Shown one piece after another: positions 46 through 26,975 of a stretch of 32,163 nucleotides of DNA. The notes under the pieces are model-generated. The model was not told the origin of the DNA. It made no database searches and saw only the letters and a program-made list of their open reading frames with translations. Each line of letters begins with the position of its first letter. Position 1 is the first letter of the stretch. Source of the DNA: Prevotella sp. (GTDB lineage Bacteria > Bacteroidota > Bacteroidia > Bacteroidales > Bacteroidaceae); contig JAFPZD010000113.1 in the NCBI GenBank assembly GCA_017417465.1, forward strand, positions 1 through 32,163. The letters are read 5' to 3'. A program made the position numbers and the translations under genes.

Positions 46-263
46 TGGCTGCGCCAGTGCAGGCCGCCAATGTAGGGGCAGGCCCCGTGCCAGCCCGTTG
101 GCCCGTCAATGTAGGGGCAGGCCTTGTGCCAGCCCGATGGCCCGTCAGGGCCAGTGTGCCCTTTCTTAAAAGACAACACAAACAACACGAACAACTCCCT
201 CCAATTACAGATCTAACAGAGACAACATCCTGGGCGCCAGCGCCCATCCGCAACAACGCATCG
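40..263 (+). repeat. REP/MITE-like element, left copy of an inverted pair
   Basis: This block is repeated in inverted orientation at 998-1187 with about five substitutions and one single-base indel over some 185 aligned bases. The left copy has an extra 39-bp unit: the motif TGTAGGGGCAGG occurs at 71 and again at 110. It contains short hairpins such as GGCCCGTCAGGGCC (139-152) and GGGCGCCAGCGCCC (232-245). An open frame runs through it (VGAGLVPAR-type peptide), but both copies can be read so and the palindromes explain the sequence better. I take it as a non-coding, REP-like mobile repeat. No transposase is present. Confidence 0.75.
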
Positions 264-341
264 GTGGTAGGCCGTTCAGATGCCCGCCACCAATGTAGGC
301 CGCCATTGTATCTCCGCCAATATAGGCAGGAAAGAGTAATT

Positions 342-735: not shown

Positions 736-778
736 ACTAACGGTTACCTGACACCTGCTATTAGCGGAATGGGAGGGT

Positions 779-912
779 GCTCGGAGGAGAGTGTCAGACT
801 GCTCGGAGGGGAGTGGGAGTCTGCTCGGAGAAATGTCGTGGACTTCTCGGAGATGTGTCGTGGACTTCTCGGAGATGTGTGGCGGACTTCTCGGAGATGT
901 GTGGCATGGAAG
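779..912 (+). repeat. 22-bp tandem array, six units (array 1)
   Basis: The core CTCGG recurs at 780, 802, 824, 846, 868 and 890, an exact 22-bp period. The last three units read GGACTTCTCGGAGATGTG; the first three are diverged. The core matches, in reverse complement, the units of the array at 26778-26879. Because 22 is not a multiple of 3, and the units are contiguous without unique spacers, neither coding nor CRISPR is a good explanation. Confidence 0.85.
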
Positions 913-2610: not shown

Positions 2611-5292
2611 ATGAAGAAAGTATTTTCAGCGATAGCATTGGCCTCGATGGCCATGACGACGTTTGCACAATCGTGGCCAACGCCAACGACTGAGGCTAAG
2701 GCGGGCGCCCGCTGGTGGTGGCTCGGGTCGGCAGTCGACAAGGAGAACCTGCAGTGGAACCTGCGGCAGTATGCCAACCACGGCATTGGGGCGGTGGAGA
2801 TCACACCGCTCTACGGCGTGCAGGGCAACCAGGCGAACAACATCGACTACCTCTCGGACAAGTGGATGGAGATGCTCCGCTACACGCAGGAGCAGTGCCA
2901 GCAGCAGGGCATCGAGCTCGACATGGCCACGGGTACGGGCTGGCCTTTCGGCGGGCCGTGGGTGCCGTTGGAGGAGAGCGCCTGCCGCGCCGTGTTCGTT
3001 GAGAAGACCATCGACAGCGAGGGTGTCTGGACAACGGTGAATGGCAACAAGGGGCTTCAGCCCGACACGCGGGACGCCGCGGTGGTCGACCTGTCGCCCT
3101 CGGAGAAGGATGCCAAGAACGCCGTGCTCCACAAGGTGATGCTCTACACCGCCGACGGCAAGGCTATCGACGTGACAAGCCAGGTGAACGACGGCAAGTT
3201 GAATGTTGTTAGCGCGGCAGCAAACTATTCACTATTCACTCTTCACTCTTCACTAAAAATTGTCGCCCTCTATATTAAATACGGTGTGATGCGCGTCAAG
3301 CGAGCTGCCCCTGGCGGCGAGGGACTGGTCATCGACCACTTCGACCGCAAGGCTGTGGCCAACTACCTGAAGCACATCGAGCAGGCCTTCGAGCGCACAA
3401 AGACCCCCTACCCTCACACCTTCTTCAACGACTCGTACGAGGTGGAGGCCGCCACGTGGACGCCCACCCTTTTTGCCGAGTTTGAGAAGCGCCGCGGCTA
3501 CAAGCTGGAGGAGCACCTGCCCGAGCTGTTAGCATCGGTAACTGATAAATCTCAAACCTCAAATCTCAACGCTCAAATCTTATCCGACTACCGCGAGACC
3601 CTTGGCGACCTGCTGCTCGAGAACTTCACCAACCAGTGGACCGCTTGGGCACACCGTCACGGCGCCATCACCCGCAACCAGGCGCACGGCTCGCCAGCCA
3701 ACCTCATCGACTGCTATGCGGCCGTCGACATTCCCGAGATTGAGGGCTTCGGCCTGAGCGACCTCGGCATCAAGGGGTTGCGCACCGACCCCGGCAAGAC
3801 GCGCAAGAACGACTCCGACTACTCGATGTTCAAGTATGCCCCCAGCGCGGCACACGTCTGCGGGAAGCCCTACACCTCGAGCGAGACCTTCACGTGGCTG
3901 ACTGAGCACTTCCGCACCAGCCTGTCACAGCTGAAGCCCGACCTCGACCTGATGTTCTGTGCCGGCGTGAACCACATGTTCTTCCACGGCACCGCCTACT
4001 CGCCCCAGAACGACGCGTGGCCCGGCTGGAAGTTCTATGCCTCCATCGACATGAGCCCCACAAACTCGATATGGCGCGATGCTCCCTACTTCATGCAGTA
4101 CGTGGAGCGCTGCCAGAGCTTCCTGCAATGGGGACAGCCCGACAACGACTTCCTGGTGCTGCTGCCTGTGCGCGACGCCTGGAAGAAGCCGACGGGCAAG
4201 CTGCTGATGCAGTTCTCGATTCACGCCATGGGCAAACTGATGCCCGAGTTCCGCGATGCCATCCTCGAGATCGACAAGGCAGGCTTCGACTGTGACTACA
4301 TCTCCGAACGACTGCTCATGCAGACCACCTGCCACGACGGACAGCTCGTCACCAGTGGCGGCACGCGCTACAAGGGGCTCATCATCCCCGGCAGTGGCGA
4401 GATGCCCGAAAGCGTCAGGCAGCACATCGACCGCCTGAAGGCTGAGGGTGCCCACATCATGTACGGCATCGACAAGGCGCAGATGGCAAGCGTCGCCAAC
4501 CCCGAGACGATGAAGACGCAGCTGGGCGTGAAAGCCATCCGCCGCAAGAACGCCAACGGCCACCACTACTTCATTGCCAACCTGACGCCCACCGACATTC
4601 ACCAGCAGGTGCGGCTGGCCGTGCCCTTCAAGGGTGCCAAGTGGTTCAATCCGCTCAATGGCGACATCACCGATGCCACCGTCACCGATGGCGCCGTCGA
4701 CATCTGCCTGCGCAGTGGTGAATCGCTGATTCTGCAGACCTTCACCGAGGCTGTCCCCGGCGATAGCAAGCCAGCGGTGCGAAAGGCTTCTGCCGGCGAG
4801 AAAACCATCACGGGGCCCTGGCAACTGTCGTTCGTCGACGAGGCTCCAAAGGTTGGGAAGACCTACCAGATGGACAAGCCTCAGACGTGGGAGACACTTG
4901 ACGAGCTGACGCGCGTGACGATGGGCACCGGCGTCTACACCACCACCTTCAAGCTCACGTCGAAAGAGGCAGCTGCCTCGTGGCTGATCGACCTCGGCGA
5001 CGTGCGCGAGAGTGCCCGCGTGTATATCAACGGTCAGTTCATCGGCTGTGCCTGGAGTGTGCCGTTTGTGCTCGACACCAGGGGCACGCTCGTAGCCGGC
5101 GAGAACACGCTGCGCATCGAGGTGACCAACCTGCCCGCCAACCGCATTGCCGACCTTGACCGCAAGGGCGTGCAGTGGCGCAAGATGGAAGAGATCAACG
5201 TCGTGGACATCAACTATAAGAAGACCCTCTACGACCAGTGGGAGCCCATGCCCAGCGGTCTGAACACCAGCGTCCGGCTCGTGGGTAAGTAA
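2611..5292 (+). CDS. Glycoside hydrolase family 106, alpha-L-rhamnosidase-like
   Basis: This 893-residue secreted enzyme is expected to release L-rhamnose from rhamnogalacturonan side chains or backbone. A signal peptide (about 1-19, ending TTFAQ) precedes the GH106 start pattern ARWWWLGSAVDKENL and NHGIGAVEITPLYG. Further family signatures are MATGTGWPFGGPW, VKRAAPGGEGLVIDHF, FFNDSYEVEAATWTP, NQAHGSPANLIDCYA and IPEIEGFGLS. A C-terminal beta-sandwich (about 720-890) resembles the sugar-binding modules of GH2-like enzymes. Two loops, residues about 205-215 and 313-323, are encoded by heptamer tandem repeats like those between genes. They sit where relatives have ordinary linkers, so the enzyme may still work. 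It probably shares a transcript with the upstream acetylesterase. No SusC/SusD genes are nearby. Confidence 0.88.
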   Translation: MKKVFSAIALASMAMTTFAQSWPTPTTEAKAGARWWWLGSAVDKENLQWNLRQYANHGIGAVEITPLYGVQGNQANNIDYLSDKWMEMLRYTQEQCQQQGIELDMATGTGWPFGGPWVPLEESACRAVFVEKTIDSEGVWTTVNGNKGLQPDTRDAAVVDLSPSEKDAKNAVLHKVMLYTADGKAIDVTSQVNDGKLNVVSAAANYSLFTLHSSLKIVALYIKYGVMRVKRAAPGGEGLVIDHFDRKAVANYLKHIEQAFERTKTPYPHTFFNDSYEVEAATWTPTLFAEFEKRRGYKLEEHLPELLASVTDKSQTSNLNAQILSDYRETLGDLLLENFTNQWTAWAHRHGAITRNQAHGSPANLIDCYAAVDIPEIEGFGLSDLGIKGLRTDPGKTRKNDSDYSMFKYAPSAAHVCGKPYTSSETFTWLTEHFRTSLSQLKPDLDLMFCAGVNHMFFHGTAYSPQNDAWPGWKFYASIDMSPTNSIWRDAPYFMQYVERCQSFLQWGQPDNDFLVLLPVRDAWKKPTGKLLMQFSIHAMGKLMPEFRDAILEIDKAGFDCDYISERLLMQTTCHDGQLVTSGGTRYKGLIIPGSGEMPESVRQHIDRLKAEGAHIMYGIDKAQMASVANPETMKTQLGVKAIRRKNANGHHYFIANLTPTDIHQQVRLAVPFKGAKWFNPLNGDITDATVTDGAVDICLRSGESLILQTFTEAVPGDSKPAVRKASAGEKTITGPWQLSFVDEAPKVGKTYQMDKPQTWETLDELTRVTMGTGVYTTTFKLTSKEAAASWLIDLGDVRESARVYINGQFIGCAWSVPFVLDTRGTLVAGENTLRIEVTNLPANRIADLDRKGVQWRKMEEINVVDINYKKTLYDQWEPMPSGLNTSVRLVGK
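3222..3255 (+). repeat. In-frame ATTCACT heptamer tract inside GH106
   Basis: Four heptamers (TATTCAC, TATTCAC, TCTTCAC, TCTTCAC at 3226-3253) encode the peptide NYSLFTLHSSL. The bases just before them match the junction tract near 1176. The reading strand is the one in which the heptamer contains no stop codon. Confidence 0.85.
3547..3580 (+). repeat. In-frame CTCAAAT heptamer tract inside GH106
   Basis: Four heptamers (CTCAAAC, CTCAAAT, CTCAACG, CTCAAAT at 3551-3578) encode SQTSNLNAQI between an LPELLASV segment and SDYRETLGDLLLENF. The composition is far more AT-rich than the surrounding coding sequence. The reverse strand of this heptamer would contain TGA. Confidence 0.8.
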
Positions 5293-15650: not shown

Positions 15651-16259
15651 TCACGGCGTCACGCCAGCAACGACAAACCCCACCGACGCAACGAACTGAG
15701 TGGCCAGCACATAGACCACAAAGAGCGGGGCTGTGACAGCCACTCCCTGTGCCAGCGCCTGAACAATGGAGGCAACCGATGTGAAAGTCCGGGCAAGCAC
15801 CCCATAGCTGACAGCAAAGACAATCGTCCCTAAAGCCAGTAGCGGCACCAGCGCCCTACTGAAAGGCGAAGGCCACAGGCTACCCGTGGCACTAAGAAGC
15901 ACGCCCGGCGGAGCCACCACCAACAGCACCACACCCCCCACGAACAGACCCGTCAGAATCAGGGCACCACGCAATGGCGTCAGCACATGGCGATAGCGAC
16001 GGTGGTTGTCGTCTCCACTCACGCCCAGACAGCCGCACCCCTGCAGACAGCCATAGGCCATAGCCAGCAGCAGCAGCCAGACGAGCACTGGTGTCTGCAA
16101 GGCGTCAACGAAGCTGCCCAGCAGCCAGCGGATGCCCTCAGTTGACAGCAGCGAACGCACATTGCCCGCCATCGTTGCCGACAGCAGCCAAGACACCATA
16201 ATGAGCAACAGTTCGCCCACGACGAGCATCGCCACCAGAAAAGCCGTTACCTTTTTCAC
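15651..16259 (-). CDS. Small AbgT-like membrane protein, possibly a reduced transporter
   Basis: This 202-residue, highly hydrophobic protein has about five membrane helices. Two segments resemble the AbgT (p-aminobenzoyl-glutamate transporter) family by eye: VRSLLSTEGIRWLLGSFVDA and the region from PPGVLLSATGSL through SYGVLARTFTSV to ATQFVA. Full AbgT proteins are about 500 residues, so this would be under half, with the N-terminal and a C-terminal part joined by a short Cys/His/Arg-rich loop (GCLQGCGCLGVSGDDNHRR). Transport function is therefore doubtful. The GTG start is formed by a junction heptamer (AGTGAAAAAGG). It lies directly downstream of the response regulator on the same strand and converges on relA with a 17-bp gap. 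Confidence 0.55.
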   Translation of the reverse strand: MKKVTAFLVAMLVVGELLLIMVSWLLSATMAGNVRSLLSTEGIRWLLGSFVDALQTPVLVWLLLLAMAYGCLQGCGCLGVSGDDNHRRYRHVLTPLRGALILTGLFVGGVVLLVVAPPGVLLSATGSLWPSPFSRALVPLLALGTIVFAVSYGVLARTFTSVASIVQALAQGVAVTAPLFVVYVLATQFVASVGFVVAGVTP

Positions 16260-16289
16260 TATTCACTATTCACTAATCACTATTCACTA
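16255..16289 (-). repeat. AGTGAAT heptamer tract forming a gene junction
   Basis: On the coding (minus) strand, AGTGAAT-type units run with an exact 7-bp period. They contain the TAG stop of the response regulator (16287-16289) at one end and the GTG start of the AbgT-like gene (16257-16259) at the other. The entire intergenic sequence is repeat. Confidence 0.9.
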
Positions 16290-26670: not shown

Positions 26671-26777
26671 CTACTTTTTTTTGAAACAAGAACCATTAAA
26701 CCCACATTTTTGTTTTCCACAACAACGAATTGGCGCCTTTGCCGCACGGATTGGCGGTGTGCGCCGAGCGGAATAGT

Positions 26778-26879
26778 CTTCTCCGAGAAGTCCCCTACTC
26801 TTCTCCGAGAAGTCTCTCACTCTTCTCCGAGAAGTCTCTCACTCTTCTCCGAGAAGTCTCTCACACTTCTCCGAGGAGT
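26778..26879 (-). repeat. 22-bp tandem array, five units (array 2)
   Basis: CTTCTCCGAGAAGT begins at 26778, 26800, 26822, 26844 and (one-base variant) 26866, an exact 22-bp period. Each core CTTCTCCGAGAAG is a 13-bp palindrome. The remainder of the unit is CTCTCAC-like. This is the reverse complement of the family at 779-912. The array lies between the divergent promoters of the WecB-like gene and the M28 peptidase. Confidence 0.92.
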
Positions 26880-26975
26880 CTGCCACGCTCTGGCGGATTA
26901 TCGATGCTCGCTGCTTTTGGGAAGGATTTAAAGTGTCTTAATTTGGCAAAAACTGCAAAATCACAATAAATAAGG
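26880..26975. other. Rest of the wecB-M28 divergent gap
   Basis: After the 22-bp array the sequence becomes AT-rich toward the M28 promoter. Nothing else recognisable is present, and the short open frames across the array are artefacts of its period. Confidence 0.5.

Follow-up and report, generated by a model that had tools for sequence, protein, structure and literature searches.

In-frame heptad arrays in a Prevotella GH106 gene and dispersed palindromic elements with heptad arms

How does a tandem array of 7-nt units come to lie in frame inside the gene of an enzyme, and how does it do so twice in one gene? The question is posed by a 32,163-nucleotide stretch of Prevotella sp. DNA (assembly GCA_017417465.1, contig JAFPZD010000113.1), called here the window, which is contig C251 of its own genome (G000; 4.42 Mb in 278 contigs, 5.5% contamination given). 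It holds a gene for a GH106 alpha-L-rhamnosidase-like enzyme with two heptad arrays of different families. The answer that we consider probable, chiefly for the first of the two, is that dispersed elements with heptad arms insert into genes in frame.

Heptads in the loops of GH106

The product of the window gene matches the PF17132 (Glyco_hydro_106) profile with E 1.4e-55 and 189.6 bits, the cut-off being 29, which places it in GH106, and it also matches the solved chains 5mqm, 5mwk and 6q2f. The gene and its inserts, whose loop positions were placed by alignment, are as follows.

2611 to 5292, + strand: GH106 alpha-L-rhamnosidase-like gene, 893 residues, PF17132, containing both inserts
3214 to 3224, + strand: leader GCGGCAGCAAA of a dispersed element, read in frame, at the start of the loop-1 insert
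3227 to 3254, + strand: four heptads, ATTCACT (3227-3233), ATTCACT (3234-3240), CTTCACT (3241-3247) and CTTCACT (3248-3254); loop 1, residues about 201-216
3551 to 3578, + strand: four imperfect heptads of the CTCAAAT family, CTCAAAC (3551-3557), CTCAAAT (3558-3564), CTCAACG (3565-3571) and CTCAAAT (3572-3578); loop 2, residues about 309-323

Tandem Repeats Finder delimits the first array at 3224-3255, with 92% matches, and the second at 3547-3580, with 77% at period 7 and 90% at period 14; at the strict threshold used below the second, its heptads being imperfect, is detected as period 14 only. Both are short and interrupted, and inside the 893-residue open frame they are translated as NYSLFTLHSSL and SQTSNLNAQI (an example of the peptide spanning the inserts is NYSLFTLHSSLK). 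The original prediction, made from this DNA alone, had both arrays, the second with exact coordinates and the first displaced by one nucleotide, to 3226-3253.

At E 1e-100 or better, GH106 matches are present in 173 of 299 same-genus genomes; the relatives named here are Prevotella or Prevotellaceae, mostly ruminant metagenome-assembled genomes (MAGs). The set compared consists of 80 genes, the window gene and 79 of 80 named orthologs, L110 being excluded for an internal stop. At a score of at least 14 these hold 17 period-7 arrays and one of period 8, with otherwise only period 14, and 10 codon shuffles gave 1 array in total, of period 6. The sites of the 17 are loop 1 (10), loop 2 (3), loop 3 (2), loop 4 (1) and the signal peptide (1). 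With the score lowered to at least 10, period-7 sequence occurs in the four loops (18,420 nt summed, their limits having been drawn after the arrays had been seen) in 19 of the 80 genes; in the 191,841 nt outside these loops just 1 of 80 has it. None of periods 4, 5, 8, 10, 11 and 13, tested likewise, gave more than 1.

What fills a given loop differs between species. Loop 1 has TTCACT heptads in the window gene and L039, CTCAACT in L046, CTCCACT in L051, ACTCCTA in L052, CTCACCT in L055 and L057, and CTCAAAT in L061, and loop 2 of L083 has heptads of CCACATT type. Palindromes rich in G+C were recognized by eye in loop 1 of L042, loop 2 of L039 and L046, and loop 3 of L115, the last standing where L078, a relative of 94.5% identity, has unrelated sequence. 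Loop 2 is only 4-5 residues long in 56 of the 80 genes, which, from the alignment, may be read as its empty state. The other GH106 gene of the window's own genome, L217, has its array outside loop 2. As the original prediction had it for the window pair, GH106 arrays nearly always present the pyrimidine-rich, stop-poor strand as sense, an AGCAGTT-type array of L098 being an exception.

A dispersed element with heptad arms

A search of the window's own genome with window positions 3000-3800 gave 49 matches: the gene itself, and 48 that coincide with one or other array (query about 205-270 and 540-596), so both heptad families are dispersed. A sample of that genome (614,672 bases in 41 pieces, partly contigs picked for matches to the same 3000-3800 query) holds 66 period-7 arrays, 24 within open reading frames (ORFs) and 42 outside, against an ORF coverage of about 90%, the ORFs in this and the following survey being those of a simple in-house caller. 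These are thus dispersed heptamer arrays lying mostly between genes, as in the short tandemly repeated repetitive (STRR) sequences of cyanobacteria. Period 7 is the commonest in the sample, the next, multiples of 7 aside, being 22 (43 arrays) and 8 (34), and three block shuffles gave 0 period-7 arrays versus the 66 observed. The period-22 class includes tandem repeats at window 778-902 and 26777-26881, and 8 of its 43 arrays are in ORFs. In 400 kb of the complete chromosome of an isolate, P. communis E15-14, there are 20 period-7 arrays, 7 of them in ORFs, the next period again being 22 with 8 arrays.

The genes that carry arrays are recognizable ones. All seven array-bearing P. communis ORFs have Pfam domains, including GH2, fucosidase, hybrid histidine kinase and peptidase. 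In the own-genome sample 21 arrays lie in 16 ORFs of at least 200 residues; Pfam, applied to 5 of those 16 and to 3 ORFs from other stretches, returned GH31, NAGLU (which we take to be GH89), C10 peptidase, another GH106 and a CarA-CarB fusion, with a weak match only for L143 among these eight. Purine-rich AACGGAG heptads also occur in frame in own-genome and P. communis genes (L136:13690-13763, L145:5446-5472, L169:8449-8477).

Is a bare array the unit of dispersal? When the places of the first family are aligned, a common leader, GCGGYAGCAAA, is seen ahead of the heptads. Leader followed by heptads is found at 12 places in the window's own genome (the GH106 loop included), at 41 in P. communis and at 65 in G312; it is present in 14 of 18 genomes, with a backwards control of 0 in all 18, and in 18 of 201 genomes of the family, representing 6 of 30 genera, again with a control of 0. 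Five close pairs occur among the 41 P. communis leader places, with arrays pointing outward in every one, and the plan is that of a palindrome: (AGTGAAn)k - TTTGCTRCCGC - mostly 28-31 nt - GCGGYAGCAAA - (nTTCACT)k. Twenty paired copies from five genomes, selected because both arms matched, follow this same plan, the loop being 28-31 nt in 18 and 11-12 nt in 2; two paired copies fold into strong hairpins, of -52 and -27 kcal/mol with RNA parameters and no shuffle control. Loop 1 of the window GH106 corresponds to the right-hand half of the palindrome only. When one mismatch was allowed in the leader, the search also picked up commonplace conserved sequence, in six orthologs, with a count of 1 in the codon-shuffle control. 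There is, further, a second leader, CTAATCAT, which stands before AATTCTC heptads both within genes (GH31-type ones and the unrelated NAGLU) and at intergenic sites.

Other copies of the first family in the window are at gene junctions, as had been predicted, and a different array lies just upstream of the GH106 gene.

1 to 45, - strand: first-family copy (AGTGAAT on the + strand), own-genome match C251:13-52
332 to 361, - strand: first-family copy, from repeat finding, where it spans 341-358, and own-genome search
1176 to 1205, + strand: first-family copy after GGCGCAGCC, from repeat finding and the alignment of family places
2559 to 2585, + strand: AGGAGTT heptad array, between the stop codon of the upstream gene and the GH106 start
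16255 to 16289, + strand: first-family copy at a gene 3' end, from repeat finding, own-genome search and survey

By eye, window 64-290 pairs with 990-1170 as a long inverted repeat, imperfect in match, that lies upstream of the gene at 1264 and has heptad arrays close to its outer ends.

An Rfam scan of the element in four sources returned no family match and one tRNA only. A link to a tyrosine transposase of the kind associated with repetitive extragenic palindromes (REPs), known as RAYT, was considered and given up: the leader core is absent from the fetched flanks of 8 Y1_Tnp loci (5 of 8 genomes), copy number does not track the transposase, and G312, with its 65 leader places, has no Y1_Tnp (its completeness not given). 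About 0.9 kb from a P. communis Y1_Tnp match is a 7-periodic array of TCTTCCC type (L222:2430-2538), of another family than the leader element.

Family patterns were counted in 18 genomes, as pattern places of which one array may hold several, with the backwards pattern as control. The L083 family has 49 places in L083's genome and 0 in the other 17; CTCAACY has 160 in the genome of L046 and at most 79 elsewhere; CTCAAAY has 80 in that of L061, 74 in that of L044 and 19 in the window's own, its backwards controls being at most 2; and TTCACT has 17 in the window's own genome and 45 in that of L039 (control 4 in each). As a tendency, then, families abound in the host whose GH106 gene carries them, four of the five patterns tested doing so.

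Linkers, signal peptides and gene ends

GH106 is not alone. Leader and heptads together are in frame in two unrelated genes, GH106 and the linker of a CarA-CarB fusion, and CTAATCAT-type repeats are in frame in GH31 and GH89 genes. The GH31 gene (L136:13690-13883) and the unrelated NAGLU gene (L145:5446-5569) have in common a repeat-derived peptide, NSAxKSNHNSQxPILNSQ, and its DNA; a similar peptide is at L218:2741, in a gene that is GH31-like by eye. Eight CarA-CarB linkers were read (8 of 14 loci, seven genomes) and all look repeat-built.

L149:8785-11955 and L228-L232, L235 and L238: fused CarA-CarB loci, with linkers that look to be made of different repeats in each genome

In the window's own genome the linker is a whole palindrome with CTACACT heptads, in G312 it has TTCACTC heptads and in G250 CTCACCT heptads, while in G300 (two copies), G301, G304 and G305 palindromes rich in G+C were recognized by eye from the peptide. 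The idea that the element caused the fusion was dropped, other genomes being fused with other linkers.

At the N-terminus, counting from the most upstream ATG, 12 of the 79 named GH106 orthologs have heptads within the first 40 codons, and in 11 of these 12 the heptads encode the hydrophobic core of the signal peptide, for instance LSFIICHLSFS, as judged by eye and with no shuffle control.

L039, L047, L055, L057, L062, L073, L074, L077, L080, L104 and L112: heptad-encoded signal-peptide cores of GH106 (L073, L074 and L077 are close relatives)

Heptads of TTTATCA or TTTCATC type encode such cores, also by eye, in GH106 N-termini and at L158:5782-6564 and L145:9721-10578.

With a unit of 7 nt a single array passes through every reading frame, and one of its strands is rich in stops and the other poor in them; an array could in this way either end a gene or extend it. 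Among the 31 arrays that the two surveys class as coding, 24 are without a stop in any sense frame and 7 have one in some sense frame, and in 23 of the 31 all three antisense frames have stops. The other 55 arrays lie for the most part at gene 3' ends (41), with 8 near a start codon only and 6 elsewhere. The stop-rich strand is the sense strand in 13 of the 16 arrays that follow a stop codon (1 of 16 opposite, 2 of 16 equal) and in 19 of the 25 that overlap one, the latter figure being partly forced by ORF calling; for the 8 near a start codon only, it is antisense in 5 and sense in 3.

Once in place, how labile is an array? Between the sister species G155 and G100 identity is 87% across the stretch with GH106 and 95% across 9.2 kb upstream of it. 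In their loop-1 array, that of the sister pair L055 and L057, both species have four units, with no gap. They also have in common an array at a gene 3' end, in which one and the same base change separates three of the units although their number is unchanged. Unit number thus looks stable, and unit sequence can change together. The same two species differ at a clean presence/absence site (L179:11544-11942), where G155 has about 400 bp that G100 lacks, with heptads and a small ORF whose product we take, from its look, to be a four-helix-bundle protein. No two GH106 loci in the two genome sets come from different strains of one species, matches being identical contigs or at most 94.9%.

Origins weighed and known systems compared

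How might the arrays have entered these genes? In the reading that we favour, Prevotella genomes carry dispersed elements with 7-bp tandem arrays as outer arms, of which the palindrome is the best defined. Copies, half-copies and arrays are strewn through the genome, mostly outside genes and mainly at gene 3' ends, and the minority inside genes would survive where frame is kept, stops are avoided and the site tolerates length, as loops, domain linkers and signal-peptide cores may. Loop 1 of the window GH106 would then derive from a leader-plus-array half-element and loop 2 from an array of the second family. Dispersal as a composite unit accounts for both leader and palindrome, and slippage may later edit the arrays. 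The element probably spreads by copying as one piece, and selection against other insertions, rather than targeting, seems best to explain the concentration in loops, linkers and signal peptides. The array-bearing GH106 loops would lie at the protein surface, and the inserts are likely to be close to neutral for the enzyme. The original prediction that repeats of intergenic type also act in coding DNA, lengthening variable loops, holds up; stand-alone heptamers as the whole picture do not, the loop-1 insert having a shared leader and belonging to a palindromic element.

Several observations weigh against an origin by insertion of such elements. A leader is present at many ATTCACT-type places, but none was seen at CTCAAAT-family places, loop 2 included. 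Of the GH106 arrays just three have the leader, those of the window gene, of L039 and, if one mismatch is allowed, of L046; the majority of arrays in coding DNA could accordingly be bare. No transposase has been linked to the element, Y1_Tnp being the one searched for. Host abundance is uneven: TTCACT is highest, at 160 places, in G301, whose GH106 has a different family, and in G250 (11 versus 10) and G314 (7 versus 0) the backwards control is no lower than the count; the control for CTCAACY reaches 37 in G300; and CTCACCT, the family of L055 and L057, is at just 1 and 5 places in their genomes. Small G301 contigs totalling 133,135 bases have just 2 period-7 arrays, both in ORFs.

A rival is replication slippage in situ, the model for long simple sequence repeats, in which a chance seed in each loop was expanded, 7-nt units being favoured, no element moves and families are alike through composition. 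Period 7 is indeed the commonest in the own-genome sample, with its 66 arrays, many arrays are without a leader, and the sister-pair array in which three units took the same base change at constant unit number fits array turnover; a preference for 7-nt units among long simple repeats is also on record, after Mrazek 2007, in a later account (PMC4679880). We nevertheless think slippage unlikely as the general origin: heptads stand behind one and the same leader at dozens of places and in 6 genera, the paired copies are alike in spacing and plan, and the 49 places of the L083 family are all in a single genome out of 18. Copying and slippage are less easily distinguished for loop 2, with no leader, than for loop 1. 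Might the loops instead be old protein sequence whose codons are repetitive by chance? Both arrays do lie where relatives have variable loops, but the residues are not common to those relatives, which have short loops or other repeats there, and since the family in a loop differs between species and loop 2 is short in 56 of 80, the segments are better taken as insertions, old sequence having next to no probability. The comparison by which the original prediction would have fallen, homologues with the same residues, did not go against it.

Equally hard to credit is an artefact of assembly or binning, for which it can be said that most genomes here are MAGs and that the window's own has its given contamination, but the same pattern recurs across many separate MAGs and is seen in an isolate too, in the complete chromosome of P. 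communis. The original prediction also allowed that these might be switchable sites, contingency loci where gain or loss of a unit turns the enzyme on and off, and, 7 being no multiple of 3, one unit would shift the frame. Yet no frameshift tied to an array was observed; just one of the listed GH106 matches has an internal stop, and in L110, the only named ortholog with a stop, it is at residue 873, with no array there. L055 and L057 keep their four units, and both window arrays are short and interrupted. This is absence of support and not disproof, and we regard switching as very improbable.

Insertion of heptad-armed elements, followed by survival where it does least harm, stays the preferred reading, for loop 1 above all. 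A broader claim is put forward tentatively, as something we are slightly less inclined to affirm than to doubt: that in Prevotellaceae heptad-armed palindromes are a running supply of in-frame modules, for loops of glycoside hydrolases, linkers of the CarA-CarB type and signal-peptide cores, the same element being able to end a gene or extend it. Junk-like DNA seems, at any rate, to be feeding new pieces into the proteins of rumen Prevotella. One loop with different repeats by species, and short alleles elsewhere, offers replicated cases for the study of how protein segments originate from non-coding DNA. For annotators there is a warning, as enzyme loops, linkers and signal peptides in Prevotella may be repeat-derived and are not to be taken as conserved function. 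Heptamer tandem repeats and palindromic elements read in frame, two curiosities so far kept apart, are here joined in a genus abundant in gut and rumen. The original prediction knew of no described Prevotella counterpart, and no Prevotella description of such elements was found in the open-access literature, most subscription papers being beyond that scope.

How does the case stand beside systems already known? The STRR sequences of cyanobacteria are known as heptamer tandem repeats in bare arrays without a conserved flank. Those of Beggiatoaceae (TAACTGA) and Xanthomonas (GGGAATC) form genome-typical families that are mainly intergenic and have one strand free of stops, according to the accessible parts of two papers (PMC4679880, PMC4692102). 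In unit length, genome-typical families, mainly intergenic placement and the stop-free strand the Prevotella repeats are like all three, but some of them have a conserved palindromic core, with which the heptamer repeats elsewhere are not described in those parts, where coding copies are exceptions (PMC4679880, PMC4692102) and some inverted arrangements are mentioned (PMC4692102).

From the side of palindromes, the Rickettsia palindromic element (RPE) is dispersed between genes and in frame inside unrelated genes for conserved proteins, and its bearer Gmk is reported to have stayed active (PMC2229807, PMC10969869). The Prevotella element is like it in kind, a dispersed palindrome with in-frame copies in unrelated genes, the two having been compared by description; it is unlike it in that the arms are 7-bp tandem arrays, the families vary by species, and what is found in a gene is often a half-element or a bare array. 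The GTAG/CGTC REPs are small palindromes that frequently come in oppositely oriented pairs; they lie for the most part downstream of ORFs and at times in frame in genes (PMC3733652), whereas the Prevotella element is longer, with heptad arms and the conserved arm TTTGCTRCCGC/GCGGYAGCAAA, and has no tyrosine transposase beside its leader. From a member of a related order comes BrickBuilt, a miniature inverted-repeat transposable element of Porphyromonas gingivalis with leader, tail and internal 23-nt tandem repeats, which has 19 copies in one strain and is reported as always intergenic (PMC4596501); leader and tandem repeats are common to both, but in Prevotella the units are of 7 nt and some copies are in genes. 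All told, we judge the Prevotella case to be one of in-frame RPE and REP elements crossed with heptamer repeats.

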